This document shows, in pieces, positions 6,311 to 13,140 of a stretch of DNA of 64,000 nucleotides. Both the position numbers and the translations under genes were made by a program. The stretch covers positions 1 through 64,000 of IMG/VR virus record IMGVR_UViG_3300046820_001062; one strand, 5' to 3'. The notes beneath the pieces were generated by a model that was not told where the DNA came from, did not search any database, and worked only from the letters and a program-made list of their open reading frames with translations. The DNA comes from a virus. Within the stretch, counting starts at the first letter, position 1. Every line of letters starts with the position of its first letter.

Positions 6311-6643
6311 TTAACGCTTCTTCTTTGGTACTAGCTCATATTCTTCATCCTTTAAAATAGGTGAAGAACGTTGCTCTGTTTCATTAGGTGGTGGGGTTTG
6401 TGCTGGCGTGCTTTTTAATGGTGTCAGGACATACGTCTTTAGTAACTTGACATCATCCTCAAGTTGCTGAATTTTAACTCTGTCTGCACTTTGCTGTGTA
6501 AGCAAAAGTTTAACATCTGCACGCATTTCTGTTACGTCTCTCCAGAGTAACATGCCAACAAGGCCAATTAGAACAGGACTAGCCCATTCTTTTAAAATAG
6601 AAATAACCTGTTCTCTAGGGTATTCTCCTTTGGTATTGCTCAT
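6311..6643 (-). CDS. Membrane-anchored coiled-coil lysis-cassette protein (110 aa)
   Basis: The protein has one hydrophobic segment at about residues 22-36 (SPVLIGLVGMLLW), then a coiled-coil heptad region (about 40-72), then a Pro/Thr/Glu-rich tail ending in basic KKKR. It is the first gene of the four-gene leftward lysis cassette. The layout (one membrane helix plus coiled coil) resembles inner-membrane spanins or holin-associated regulators, but nothing in the sequence decides between these. Function inferred from context only. Confidence 0.6.
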   Translation of the reverse strand: MSNTKGEYPREQVISILKEWASPVLIGLVGMLLWRDVTEMRADVKLLLTQQSADRVKIQQLEDDVKLLKTYVLTPLKSTPAQTPPPNETEQRSSPILKDEEYELVPKKKR

Positions 6644-6770
6644 TTTTGTAAGAATATAAGTTATTATAAGATAATTTATACTCCTACCTCTCTCATATAT
6701 AATATACAGAAATAATTACAAAGAACAAAAGAATCTCAAACTAATCTTTCTCTTTTTAAAAAATATTTAC

Positions 6771-6780
6771 CATCTTTGTA
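6771..6780 (+). promoter_or_regulatory. Candidate Bacteroidota-type -7 box upstream of the nrdB leader
   Basis: CATCTTTGTA differs by one base from the Bacteroidota -7 consensus TAnnTTTG and shares CTTTGTA with the better boxes at 9620 and 12381. No clear -33 TTTG is visible at the right distance. Transcription would start near 6785, about 30 bases before the first leader hairpin. Confidence 0.4.
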
Positions 6781-6814
6781 CTCCATGAAAAATCCAAAAA
6801 ACTGTAAAACTTAA

Positions 6815-6926
6815 CACTCTTATTCTTGGCAAAGAAGGGTGATTTTTGTATCTTATATGAGTGAGGTCAGAGTTTGATTTCACCTTATACACAACCTGGA
6901 AAGTGATAGCTTTGCCAGGTTTTTTT
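6815..6926 (+). promoter_or_regulatory. Structured leader RNA with possible antiterminator/pseudoknot before nrdB
   Basis: Three consecutive hairpins can be drawn: P1 6815-6821 with 6835-6841, P2 6862-6867 with 6882-6887, and the terminator 6893-6903 with 6910-6921. The loop of P1 contains CTTGGCAAAG (6825-6834), complementary over ten bases (one G-U pair) to CTTTGCCAGG (6910-6919), which is the 3' arm of the terminator. Forming that long-range helix would destroy the terminator, so the element has the form of an attenuator or riboswitch-like control of nrdB and nrdA. It matches no riboswitch class I know. Whether it acts as a switch is inferred. Confidence 0.55.
6893..6926 (+). terminator. 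Terminator inside the nrdB leader
   Basis: AACCTGG-AAAG (6893-6903) pairs with CTTT-G-CCAGGTT (6910-6921) with one bulged G, a six-base loop and a run of T to 6926. It stands 60 bases upstream of the nrdB start with no gene before it on this strand, so it is either an attenuator or the end of a small RNA. Confidence 0.8.
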
Positions 6927-6986
6927 GCCAATAAGTACTGGTAATCAGTTAACTAACTTTAAAATTAACAATAAATATAAACAACT

Positions 6987-7961
6987 ATGGGTATCTTTGA
7001 CAAACGTGTGGCCTTCAAGCCCTATGAGTATCCTGAAATTATTAAGTTCAGGGATGCTATCAAACACAGTCGTTGGGATGTTGAAGAGTTTAACTTTGAC
7101 TCTGACGCTTTTGACTTCAAACACAAATTAAGTCCTCATGAAAAAGAGGCAATCAAAAGAACTCTTTTGGCTATTTCACAGATAGAAGTATCTGTAAAAA
7201 CATTCTGGGCAAAGCTTGGTGAGCATATTCCAAAACCAGAATTTAACTCAGTAGGAATCACGTTTGCAGAAAATGAAGTTGTACACTCTGAAGCTTATAG
7301 CAAGTTGCTAGAAGTTTTAGGATTAAACAATGAATTTGATATGCTGTTACAGAATCCAGTTATTGGAGGACGCGTGGATTATTTGACAAAGTATCTTAAG
7401 AACAGTGGAGAAAACGCCAAACAGGTTTACACTTTAAACCTTGCTCTCTTCTCTATGTTTATTGAGAACGTATCATTATTTAGCCAGTTTGCTATTGTAA
7501 AATCTTTTATTGAAAAGAAAAACATGTTGAAAGAAGTAGACACTGTTATTGAAGCTACAATGAAAGAAGAAATTATACATGCGCAGCTTGGTATGCATGT
7601 TATCAATCTAATCAAGAAAGAATACCCAGAATGGTTTGACCAAGATTTTTATGACAAAATCTACAGGGCCTGCAAAAAAGCTTTTGATGCAGAAGTAAAA
7701 ATCATTGACTGGATATTTGAAAATGGAGAGATTGATAGTATCTCAAAAGATGCTGTTATTGAATTTATTAAATCAAGATTTAATGCTTCATTAACTGCTA
7801 TTGGTGGCAAAGAACTTTTTGAAATTGATGAAGACAAACTTTCAGAACTGTATTGGATGGTTGAGGCTATCTATGGTTATGTGCGTAATGACTTCTTCAA
7901 TACACAAGGAACTAACTACACTAAATTTCAAAAATCTATAACAAGTAAAGACTTATTTTAA
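6987..7961 (+). CDS. nrdB: Class I ribonucleotide reductase, small (radical) subunit
   Basis: A 324-residue R2 protein that houses the metal/tyrosyl radical cofactor and passes the radical to NrdA for reduction of ribonucleotides. The ligand set is complete: E67 (QIEV), E97 and H100 (ENEVVH), E160 (FIEN), E195 and H198 (EEIIH). Y104, four residues after H100, is in the position of the radical-bearing tyrosine of E. coli NrdB, so a tyrosyl radical enzyme is expected. The C-terminus ends in KSITSKDLF, the flexible tail that docks on the large subunit. It is the first gene after the structured leader and precedes nrdA by one base. Confidence 0.95.
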   Translation: MGIFDKRVAFKPYEYPEIIKFRDAIKHSRWDVEEFNFDSDAFDFKHKLSPHEKEAIKRTLLAISQIEVSVKTFWAKLGEHIPKPEFNSVGITFAENEVVHSEAYSKLLEVLGLNNEFDMLLQNPVIGGRVDYLTKYLKNSGENAKQVYTLNLALFSMFIENVSLFSQFAIVKSFIEKKNMLKEVDTVIEATMKEEIIHAQLGMHVINLIKKEYPEWFDQDFYDKIYRACKKAFDAEVKIIDWIFENGEIDSISKDAVIEFIKSRFNASLTAIGGKELFEIDEDKLSELYWMVEAIYGYVRNDFFNTQGTNYTKFQKSITSKDLF

Positions 7962-7962
7962 C

Positions 7963-9618
7963 ATGACAACAAAAATGGACTGGTACACACCCCTCAGTGA
8001 AGAATTCATGGGAAGAGGGTATTTTCACAACAATGAATCTATTGAAGATAGAATCAACTCTATTGCCAACTTAGTTGGTGAAACATTTAAGGATGACGAG
8101 ATAAAAGCAAAGGTAAAAGATTACATTGAAAAAGGTTACTATGTACTTCCATCACCTGTATGGAGTAACGTAGGTACTGGTCGCGGTTCTGGTATTTCTT
8201 GTTTTAACACACATGTCAGTGACAGTATTGAATCTATTGTTAGAGCAAATGCTGAAGTTGGTATGCTTTGTAAAATTGGAGGAGGAACATCAGGTTACTT
8301 TGGTGAATTACGTCCAGCTGGTACACCCATCTCAACAGGTGGTGAAACCTATGGAGCTGTGCATTTTATGCAGATGTTTGACACAACCAAAAATGTTATC
8401 TCACAAGGTAATGTTAGACGTGGTGAATTTGCTGCATATCTTGACATTGATCATGGTGATATTAAAGATTTCTTGAGAATCAATGGTGAGGGCCACAAAC
8501 TTCAACGTTTTCCTTTTGGTGTTTGTGTTTCTGACAAATGGCTTGAAGAAATGAAAGCAGGCGATATGGAAAAGCGTGAGCTATGGGCCATGGTAATTGA
8601 CAGCAGAAACAGAACTGGCTTTCCTTACATATTCTATACAGATAATGTAAACAATGCAACTGTTGATGTATACAAAGACAATGGATCTGTTATTAACTCT
8701 TCTAACATGTGTACAGAGATATTACTTCCTTCTACAGAAGAAGAATCCTTTGTGTGTGACTTAGTAGGCATGAACCTAGTTAAGTTTGATGAATGGAAAG
8801 ACACTGACGCTGTACGCATTGCTGTTTACATTGCAGATGCTGTTTTGACTGAGTTTATAAACAAGTATAGAGATGTTGCTTTTATTAGCAGAGCTATCCG
8901 TTTTGCAGAAAGACATAGAGCTATTGGTATTGGAGCATCAGGTTATCATTCTTACTTGCAAAGTAATATGATTCCTTTTGAGTCAATGCAAGCTAAGCTT
9001 GTAAACACTTTGATTTTCAAAACAATACAAGAACAATGTTGGGCAGCAAGCCGTGAGATGGCGTCACGCTTTGGTAAACCAGAAGTTCTTGCTTCTGACA
9101 AATATGATAGACGTCATACCACGCTTACAGCGATTGCTCCAAACACTTCTTCTTCTTTCATCATGGGACAACAGTCTCAGAGTATAGAACCTTACACCAG
9201 TAATTACTATATCAAGAAGACAGCAAAGGTTAAGCATTCTGTAAAGAACCCTTATCTAAAAGAGCTTCTTGCTAAGTTGGGTAAGGATACAATGGAAGTA
9301 TGGCAGTCAATCCTGGAAAGAGCTGGTAGTGTTCAACACTTATCATTCTTGTCAGAAGAAGAAAAACTTGTGTTCAGAACCTTTATGGAAATCTCCCAGA
9401 TGGAAATTATTATTCAAGCTTCTACGCGTCAGAAATATGTTGACCAAGGACAGTCTTTGAATCTTATGATCCATCCTCAAACGCCAACAAAAGATATTAA
9501 TACTTTGTTATTGAAAGCCCATGAGTTGGGTATCAAAACGTTGTACTATCAATTGGGGCAAAACGCTGCTCAAGAATTTGCAAGAGACATTCTTTCTTGT
9601 GAATCCTGTGCAGGATAA
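7963..9618 (+). CDS. nrdA: Class I ribonucleotide reductase, large (catalytic) subunit, compact form
   Basis: A 551-residue catalytic subunit that reduces ribonucleoside diphosphates. Active-site residues are present: C80 (GISCF) and C265 (VCDL) as the redox pair, and N248, C250, E252 (NMCTE) at the radical site. The YY pair of the radical relay is in LYYQLGQN near residue 531, and the C-terminal CESCAG (C546, C549) is the disulfide-exchange tail. Many class Ia proteins exceed 700 residues; this one starts almost at the barrel and lacks an ATP-cone, so dATP feedback inhibition through that domain should be absent. The gene order nrdB-nrdA is the reverse of that in E. coli. Confidence 0.95.
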   Translation: MTTKMDWYTPLSEEFMGRGYFHNNESIEDRINSIANLVGETFKDDEIKAKVKDYIEKGYYVLPSPVWSNVGTGRGSGISCFNTHVSDSIESIVRANAEVGMLCKIGGGTSGYFGELRPAGTPISTGGETYGAVHFMQMFDTTKNVISQGNVRRGEFAAYLDIDHGDIKDFLRINGEGHKLQRFPFGVCVSDKWLEEMKAGDMEKRELWAMVIDSRNRTGFPYIFYTDNVNNATVDVYKDNGSVINSSNMCTEILLPSTEEESFVCDLVGMNLVKFDEWKDTDAVRIAVYIADAVLTEFINKYRDVAFISRAIRFAERHRAIGIGASGYHSYLQSNMIPFESMQAKLVNTLIFKTIQEQCWAASREMASRFGKPEVLASDKYDRRHTTLTAIAPNTSSSFIMGQQSQSIEPYTSNYYIKKTAKVKHSVKNPYLKELLAKLGKDTMEVWQSILERAGSVQHLSFLSEEEKLVFRTFMEISQMEIIIQASTRQKYVDQGQSLNLMIHPQTPTKDINTLLLKAHELGIKTLYYQLGQNAAQEFARDILSCESCAG

Positions 9619-9646: not shown

Positions 9647-10270
9647 ATGAAAGATCTATATGATTACTTAGTCAAAAACAAGGTAAGCCCTAATGGATTG
9701 TTTGTATTACATTGCACCTTTAACAACTATATGTACCCATCTTATGTGAATTTCAAGACGGAGCAATACCGTCTTGAAACCACTGGACATCTTGTAAAAG
9801 AAAGTACAGGTGTAAATGATATTTACAAAATAACTCTAACAGGCGAACACCTTTTGAAAGAGTGTGAACACATTCTTAACAAAGCAAAGCGTGCTAAAAA
9901 GAATCCAATTGCTCTTGCTGAATGGGATGATAAGATTGCTGAATACAATCAATTGTTTCCTGCTGGTAAGAAATCTGGTACAAGCTTAGCATTCCGCACT
10001 AATCCTAAAGAACTTGTTGCAGCATTTGTATGGTTCTTTAAAGAATATCCTGAGTATACTTGGGATGATGTCTTTACTGCAACTAAAAGATATGTAGAAA
10101 GTTTTGAAGCTACTTCAGACTATACATACATGCAAACATCAAGATACTTTATTAAAAAAGATGACAAGAATAAAAACACAATTTCAAATCTAGCTGGTAT
10201 ATGTTATAACATTGCTGAAGGAAATGATGAAGATGTTTCTGATTCTGGTTATCATTATTTTGGCCCTTAA
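9647..10270 (+). CDS. Hypothetical protein, possible winged-helix N-terminus (207 aa)
   Basis: The 207-residue product has an N-terminal region (about 1-75) whose helix-helix-strand pattern, ending in IYKITLTGEHLLKE, resembles winged-helix DNA-binding or replication-initiator domains; this is only a shape impression. A basic linker (KAKRAKKN, about 85) leads to a C-terminal helical part rich in aromatic residues (FVWFFKEYPEYTWDD) and an acidic tail. It sits between nrdA and a DUF3846-like gene under its own candidate promoter. A role in DNA replication or regulation is possible but unproven. Confidence 0.7.
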   Translation: MKDLYDYLVKNKVSPNGLFVLHCTFNNYMYPSYVNFKTEQYRLETTGHLVKESTGVNDIYKITLTGEHLLKECEHILNKAKRAKKNPIALAEWDDKIAEYNQLFPAGKKSGTSLAFRTNPKELVAAFVWFFKEYPEYTWDDVFTATKRYVESFEATSDYTYMQTSRYFIKKDDKNKNTISNLAGICYNIAEGNDEDVSDSGYHYFGP

Positions 10271-10280
10271 ACATAAGACA

Positions 10281-10676
10281 GTGGTTAAAGCAATTAAAAT
10301 TGACGCAAAAAATAGATGCATTGAGATTGTGGATTTAGGTCCACAACTCAGTGACATTTATCAGTTACTTGAATGTAACATTATGACTGTTGCATATCCG
10401 CAAACAGTAGAACCTACATCTGATGTTATCTATGTAGATGACGAAGGTTTATTTAAACCTGTTGACAAAATTCCAGGTGCTTTCTTTATTGATATCTATC
10501 CCGCACAACCATTATTTGGTCATGCACTTATAGTGGGTACAGATGATGAAGGAGGTAACGCTGACACTACTTTCACAGTAGAACAAGTTTCTGATATGGT
10601 GCAGTTTCTTGATGAAGAAGAGGTTAAACTATGGCAGGAACATCTTACAAAACCACCTCAAATATTTACATTCTAA
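10281..10676 (+). CDS. DUF3846-like protein (131 aa), GTG start
   Basis: Translation from GTG at 10281 gives a 131-residue protein. Its layout, an N-terminal VVKAIKIDAKN strand, a central CNIMTVAYP segment, VDDEG and a glycine-rich HALIVGTDDEGG near the end, resembles the DUF3846 family of small phage proteins of unknown function. The frame stays open upstream to ATG at 10212, but that extension overlaps the previous gene by 59 bases and reads as a spurious hydrophobic stretch, so the GTG eleven bases after the preceding stop is preferred. The stop overlaps the thyX ATG (TAATG). Confidence 0.65.
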   Translation: MVKAIKIDAKNRCIEIVDLGPQLSDIYQLLECNIMTVAYPQTVEPTSDVIYVDDEGLFKPVDKIPGAFFIDIYPAQPLFGHALIVGTDDEGGNADTTFTVEQVSDMVQFLDEEEVKLWQEHLTKPPQIFTF

Positions 10677-11371
10677 TGGACAACAAAGTAGAATTACTAG
10701 GATACTATGGAACTGATCTGGTTCATGCACAATCTGCATGGACCAGTACTTCCAGAGATTTGTCAGAAGACAAATTACAACGAGTTGACAAATTACTTGA
10801 GATGCTTGCCTCAGAAGGACATCACACACCTTTTGAAAAATCATCACTACACTTTCTTGTAACAGTAGATCAAGCCACACATATTCACTTGCTAAAACAT
10901 CGCGTTGGTGTAAGTATTAATGGTGAGTCTGCTAGGTACAAAGAATTAAAAGAAGATAAGTTTTATATTCCTGAAGATTGGAAAGGACAACCCTTGTCTG
11001 AGGATTTATATCTTCATGATGAGATGTCTGAAGATGAACTATCTTGGAAAAAAGGAGTAGATTACTGGAGCAATGTATTGCAAGACTTTACAGATATTTC
11101 AAATTATCTGTATCACAATTGTTTAAAAGACTTGACACCCTTGATAGGACGCAAACGTGCTAAGGAGTCTGCAAGATTTTTTAAAACAATGAACTCACAA
11201 ATTACCATGGATGTAATGTTTAACTGGAGAAGCTTTGCTCACTTTTTAAAACTGCGTAATTCAGAACATGCACAAAAAGAAGTGAGAGAATTAGCACAGC
11301 AGATGCTGCAACTTGTAAAAGATATTCCAGGAAATCCTTTTGAGAAAACCATTAAAGCATTTAACTTATGA
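10676..11371 (+). CDS. thyX: Flavin-dependent thymidylate synthase
   Basis: A 231-residue ThyX, which methylates dUMP to dTMP using FAD, NADPH and methylene-tetrahydrofolate. The family signature RHRx7S appears as KHRVGVSINGESARY (H75, R76, S85, R87, Y88), and EGHHTPFE (about 48-55) is the other conserved block. I chose ATG at 10676, which overlaps the preceding stop as TAATG and begins MDNKVELLG as ThyX proteins usually do; a longer start at 10631 would add 15 residues inside the upstream gene. It overlaps the next gene by four bases (ATGA). With NrdAB and the dNMP kinase it supplies deoxynucleotides independently of the host. Confidence 0.95.
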   Translation: MDNKVELLGYYGTDLVHAQSAWTSTSRDLSEDKLQRVDKLLEMLASEGHHTPFEKSSLHFLVTVDQATHIHLLKHRVGVSINGESARYKELKEDKFYIPEDWKGQPLSEDLYLHDEMSEDELSWKKGVDYWSNVLQDFTDISNYLYHNCLKDLTPLIGRKRAKESARFFKTMNSQITMDVMFNWRSFAHFLKLRNSEHAQKEVRELAQQMLQLVKDIPGNPFEKTIKAFNL

Positions 11372-11860: not shown

Positions 11861-11893
11861 AAAAGGGCCTTGCAAAACAGGGCCCTTTTCTTT
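11861..11893. terminator. Bidirectional terminator between the two genome arms
   Basis: AAAAGGGCC (11861-11869) pairs with GGCCCTTTT (11881-11889), with A/T runs on both flanks, so it can act on both strands. It separates the rightward arm from the leftward virion arm. Confidence 0.9.
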
Positions 11894-13079: not shown

Positions 13080-13140
13080 TGTTATAATTTTTTTTAGTTA
13101 ATTTCTACATTAATAATATACAAAATATCTAGGAATTTAC

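Follow-up and report, generated by a model that had tools for sequence, protein, structure and literature searches.

How does a phage set the output of its own ribonucleotide reductase genes? The question is raised by the leader in front of nrdB in the virus record IMGVR_UViG_3300046820_001062 (123,730 bases), of which positions 1-64000 were analyzed here as the window. A first-pass annotation had described this leader as a pseudoknot/antiterminator, in which a ten-base segment in the loop of hairpin P1 (here segment A) pairs across a second hairpin, P2, with the 3' arm of a terminator and so opens it.

Locus, relatives and host

The leader sits between a minus-strand gene (start at 6643) and nrdB, with nrdA next (Table 1). 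The ATP-cone (PF03477), the domain by which dATP normally switches off the reductase, had no match in the 123.7 kb record, NrdA included, in a search with positive controls in 13/14 genomes. Just 3' of nrdBA is a ThyX-type thymidylate synthase gene (10631-11371), the start of which is overlapped by a small ORF (both within window 10212-11371). A search with NrdB identified 26 related viral loci. Window-like leaders were present in L001-L014 and L020-L022 (group 1), from which 12 distinct leaders were compared, and a leader of different sequence and similar layout was present in L015-L019 and L026 (group 2). In L023-L025 (NrdB identity 76%), a gene occupies the place of the leader. NrdB identity to the more distant phages L045, L091 and L092 was 40-55%. 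No relatives were found among bacterial genome contigs, and no phage nrd attenuators were found in the literature.

For the portal protein, the best match came from a phage recorded from Leptolyngbya, at 31% identity; the other matching records were mostly crAss-like, Bacteroides, Flavobacterium and Cellulophaga phages. TAnnTTTG is the box of Bacteroidota sigma-A, found at -12 to -5 (PMC9723704, PMC7366714). Based on these phage matches and on host-type promoters that fit TAnnTTTG, the host of this phage is most likely a member of the Bacteroidota.

Table 1. Features of the nrdB leader and its surroundings (window coordinates unless marked as record).
Feature	Position	Strand	Description
GTAWMTTATWWRWG matches	6694..6707; 6848..6861; 13108..13121; record 74362..74375	-; +; -; -	phage promoter class
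Distal promoter, -7 box CATCTTTG	6771..6778	+	Bacteroidota sigma-A type; predicted start near 6783
Possible leaderless short ORF	6785..6814	+	MKNPKNCKT, then stop; ends just before P1; not conserved
Hairpin P1	6815..6841	+	segment A in loop; weak, ~ -8 kcal/mol, z=-1.7
Segment A CTTGGCAAAG	6825..6834	+	complementary to terminator 3' arm CTTTGCCAGG (6910-6919)
Proximal promoter box GTATCTTATATGAG	6848..6861	+	phage class GTAWMTTATWWRWG; predicted start near 6859-6861
Hairpin P2	6857..6888 (about)	+	5' end of predicted proximal RNA; -10.4 kcal/mol, z=-2.6
Intrinsic terminator	6894..6926	+	10-bp stem, bulged G6914, 6-nt loop, T7
Conserved segment GCCAATA	6927..6933	+	after T-run; near-invariant in 12 leaders
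nrdB	6987..7961	+	class I ribonucleotide reductase small subunit; PHROG 86, E 4e-67; PF00268, E 1e-53
nrdA	7963..9618	+	large subunit; PHROG 84, E 2e-132; PF02867

A conserved terminator lies ahead of nrdB

The terminator stem is formed by ACCTGG-AAAG and CTTT-G-CCAGGT, and its seven T (6920-6926) end 60 nt ahead of nrdB. Among the 12 distinct group 1 leaders, the module ACCTGG[AG]AAG-loop-CTTT[GA]CCAGG-T7-[GA]CCA was near-invariant; the stem was 100% paired, the bulge was a purine in 12/12, and a run of exactly seven T was found in 12/12, followed by [GA]CCA. A covariance model of this module detected one strong copy per group 1 record searched, always before nrdB. Genome-wide (123.7 kb), the module was the sole hairpin and T-run ahead of a gene, all others being located at gene ends, and a leader-type hairpin with T-run was found in 1 of 25 leader regions of this genome. 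By equilibrium folding, the ensemble probability of the terminator was at least 0.99 in 12/12 group 1 leaders, and the fold of the whole leader scored z=-3.1 against shuffles. An ordinary convergent terminator (11862-11888) also kept its stem sequence among relatives, with a variable loop and T-run. Taken together with the promoter motifs described below, these results put an intrinsic terminator after the promoter and ahead of the first gene, which is the anatomy of an attenuator, and bear out the first-pass annotation in its claim of a terminator upstream of the ribonucleotide reductase operon. The terminator is the robust feature of the leader and most likely a real attenuator.

The conserved segment after the T-run, taken with the T's that precede it, repeats the TTTGCCA of the 3' arm; this second complementary copy, TTTGCCAA at 6924-6931, was absent from the first-pass annotation. 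Two other readings of these letters were rejected. The terminator region can be translated in the frame of the window as TWKVxxLPGFFA, but the 8-nt loops of L002, L004 and L007 shift the frame, and the region is therefore not coding. A DNA operator composed of TTGGCAA/TTTGCCA repeats was also set aside, as three copies of TTTGCCA are in the leader, the remaining matches in the window appeared to fall inside genes, and no promoter-near set was seen.

Two promoter-like elements precede the terminator

Neither of the promoter-like elements of the leader (6771-6778 and 6848-6861) had been noted in the first-pass annotation. The distal box read nAnnTTTG in all group 1 leaders, with the first T of the consensus TAnnTTTG lost, and its -33 element was only TTTC in the window and the consensus TTTG in several relatives. 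The proximal box matched a class, GTAWMTTATWWRWG, that was enriched over control across related genomes (20 exact matches in nine related whole records vs 0 for the reversed pattern). Three of the four exact matches in the window's genome were intergenic and just upstream of a gene on the same strand. Members of this class were mostly near late-type minus-strand genes, and the divergent minus-strand gene had its own promoter copy (at 6707) in most group 1 loci. In group 1, a TTG within segment A (6826-6828) did not vary, and its distance to the TAnnTT downstream was always exactly 20 nt; given this -33/-7 spacing, the TTG is presumed to serve the proximal promoter as its -33 box. Counted from the proximal start through T7, the length was 62-67 nt in 11/12 group 1 leaders.

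Hairpins and upstream ORFs

Hairpin P2 was recovered between the complementary arms, as the first-pass annotation had it, and scored z -1.6 to -4.5 in 9/12 relatives of differing sequence. Five P2 pairs were changed on both sides, with slid controls not far behind, and for P1 a slid control scored equally well, the alignment outside the terminator being uncertain for both hairpins. With covariation of P1 and P2 this weak, the conserved aptamer and covarying helices of a riboswitch were not found, and the stretch from the promoter elements to the terminator had no conserved core in the 12 leaders. Searches of Rfam at gathering and relaxed thresholds returned only chance matches below cut-off, with no riboswitch among the weak ones, in agreement with the earlier statement that the leader matches no RNA class.

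The ATG of the short ORF upstream of P1 was missing in L009, L010-L014, L020 and L021, its frames and stops varied among relatives, and its frame differed between the window and the L004 types. A leader-peptide attenuator was rejected on the grounds that frames, starts and stops are not conserved. A 37-codon upstream ORF of group 2 (L015:2793-2906) shares bases with segment A and with the promoter box; the differences between two group 2 uORFs mostly change the amino acid by our own count, and this ORF is probably not a conserved peptide.

The long-range helix is exact in the window and eroded in relatives

The complement between segment A and the terminator 3' arm was exact and located where the first-pass annotation had placed it, with ten pairs in a row, of which nine are Watson-Crick and one is G-U. 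When the 115 upstream bases were dinucleotide-shuffled 1000 times as a null, the strongest duplex that the 3' arm can form with them (-15.2 kcal/mol), which falls exactly at segment A, had a p of 0.002. The complement was kept in six close relatives (p 0 to 0.04 in L001, L003, L004, L005 and L007). In group 2, a complement of different letters was found at a similar place (p ~0.05), and 3/3 substitutions in this helix retained pairing.

Covariation among homologous leaders, which the first-pass annotation had named as the mark of its switch, was not seen for this helix in the 12 leaders of group 1, where 86% pairing was found with 0 compensatory pairs and the last two pairs were broken in 6/12 and 4/12 leaders. 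The helix was missing or weak in L002, L009, L010, L014 and L020 with the terminator intact; in L020, most of the helix was lost and the terminator was unchanged. When the terminator 5' arm was kept unpaired, the best fold of the window was -25.9 vs -34.1 kcal/mol (about 8 worse), and the ensemble probability of the helix was ~0 in 12/12 leaders, both being equilibrium values. No mutually exclusive antiterminator of competitive stability was found. Cotranscriptional folding should favor the terminator further, as the 3' arm is made last and beside the 5' arm. Thus, the proposed role of the helix as a switch that opens the terminator was poorly supported, and the helix can at most assist. Pairing of segment A with the copy after the T-run, as a conserved closing helix, was rejected (84% of cells paired, no compensation); the minimum-energy folds of most relatives were without this pairing.

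Unrelated terminators precede nrdB in other lineages

Terminators of unrelated sequence were found before nrdB in group 2, L045, L091 and L092. By this comparison, 5/7 lineages had an nrdB leader with a terminator vs 7/82 other leader regions (Fisher p 3e-4), a count that assumes independent lineages and that, because the lineages are a non-random sample, serves as supporting evidence only. A T-run of 5-8 followed the hairpin in 5/5 terminator-bearing nrdB lineages. No such terminator was found in L088 and L090 (NrdB identity 63% and 58%) or in L023-L025, and the terminator is therefore dispensable in some phages.

The leaders of L045 (680-710) and L091 (1445-1472) are very short and consist of a perfect TAnnTTTG box, ~20 nt, and a hairpin with T-run before nrdB. 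That of L092 (1240-1370) is a structured leader of ~130 nt (z -5.6) with a perfect terminator at its end, ~150 nt before nrdB, and had no match above cut-off in Rfam. Directly after the T-run, [AG][CT]C or ATCC was present in all five nrdB terminators (window 6927-6929, L015, L045, L091 and L092).

An attenuation model and its alternatives

We consider it probable that the leader is a transcription attenuator with tandem promoters, one default terminator and a need for read-through to express nrdBA. Transcripts would start at two tandem promoters, one of host sigma-A type and one of phage type, both upstream of one terminator. Segment A would be present in transcripts from the distal start and missing from those that begin at the proximal one (~6860), and both kinds would meet the terminator. 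This terminator would fold by default, so that most transcripts should end near 6926 at lengths of ~144 and ~66 nt, and nrdBA would be expressed only to the extent of polymerase read-through. Read-through could be triggered by an antitermination factor from phage or host, by translation of a short ORF in the leader, or by a nucleotide signal. The computed support for attenuation consists of the conservation, position, genome uniqueness and equilibrium dominance of the terminator, together with the promoter motif; a counterpoint is that the bulge weakens the terminator stem. Activity of the two promoters, function of the terminator in the host, and regulation of read-through, as opposed to a fixed fraction, are further inferences.

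The letters of the terminator are constrained beyond pairing (purine bulge, exact T7, [GA]CCA after the run) and the covariance model finds them only before nrdB; since they are fixed, it is reasonable to guess that a protein acts on the hairpin. Recognition by an antitermination or translation factor would explain the bulged purine, the exact T7 and the post-T segment, and is compatible with attenuation, not opposed to it. However, an ordinary terminator of this genome also retains its stem, and a phage NusG-type or sigma-region-4 protein was rejected as the trigger with no match in the genome for either; we regard such recognition as possible but somewhat doubtful. The proposed switch, in which pairing of segment A with the 3' arm would open the terminator to passing transcription, draws on the exact ten-pair complement (p 0.002), its retention in five of the loci named above, and the group 2 complement with its three pair-keeping substitutions; the bulged purine, too, would find a partner in that helix. 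Against this stand the lack of compensation with eroded ends, the five leaders in which the terminator outlasts the helix, the 8 kcal/mol advantage of the terminator with helix probability near zero, a target arm made last and next to its waiting partner, and a TTG already accounted for as a promoter box. As segment A is upstream of the proximal start, only distal-promoter RNAs could use it. We find this switch unlikely.

The proximal promoter, P2 and the terminator could instead constitute a small phage RNA gene, the free ~66-nt product of which acts elsewhere, with nrdB only next in line. A dedicated promoter, two hairpins, a length that hardly varies (62-67 nt) and a conserved terminator would fit such a gene, but there is no conserved single-stranded seed, the arms, loops and linker of P2 vary freely, the element is always directly before nrdB, and group 2 keeps the promoter box and terminator and not P2, all of which make this reading rather improbable. 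A hairpin whose only role is to stabilize the mRNA at its 5' end, or to stop stray transcription, is also an unlikely account; 5'-end hairpins can protect mRNA and P2 would lie where the proximal RNA begins, yet 5-8 T's follow the hairpin in all five lineages and the terminator is downstream of both operon promoters. It is very improbable that the proximal -33 box, when carried in early-promoter RNA, doubles as an antiterminator such that early transcripts pass and late ones stop; if true, deoxynucleotide synthesis would be confined to one infection phase.

Relation to known systems and significance

The attenuator favored here resembles trp/pyr-type leaders and terminator riboswitches, in which a promoter, a short structured leader and an intrinsic terminator likewise precede a biosynthetic operon. 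By contrast to these systems, the phage leader has no identified sensor, leader-peptide conservation or competitive antiterminator, and terminates by default at equilibrium. Promoter-proximal terminators are overcome by antitermination at lambda tR' with Q and by the put RNA of HK022, where a promoter is likewise closely followed by a terminator and read-through is needed for the genes beyond; the phage terminator differs in that it is single-copy and only before nrdB, with no antitermination factor recognized. In Mesoplasma, a 2'-deoxyguanosine riboswitch precedes ribonucleotide reductase genes and is thus also an RNA leader at this function, whereas the phage leader has no Rfam match at gathering score. 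Structured leaders thought to attenuate and having the same promoter type occur in Flavobacterium and Bacteroides, probably of the same phylum as the host; these precede host genes, and in this the phage leader differs. For F. psychrophilum, 64 structured 5' regions have been reported (PMC9723704), and for Bacteroides thetaiotaomicron, leader-peptide-like long 5' UTRs (PMC7366714). The word 'ribonucleotide' is absent from the former paper, and nrd or ribonucleotide reductase from the latter.

The reductase of this phage is without an ATP-cone, and deoxynucleotide supply could therefore be restrained mainly through control over how much enzyme is made. As no phage-encoded antitermination factor was recognized in the genome, the leader would be a natural bait for one. 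The presence of unrelated terminators before nrdB in five phage lineages suggests that gating this operon after transcription start pays.
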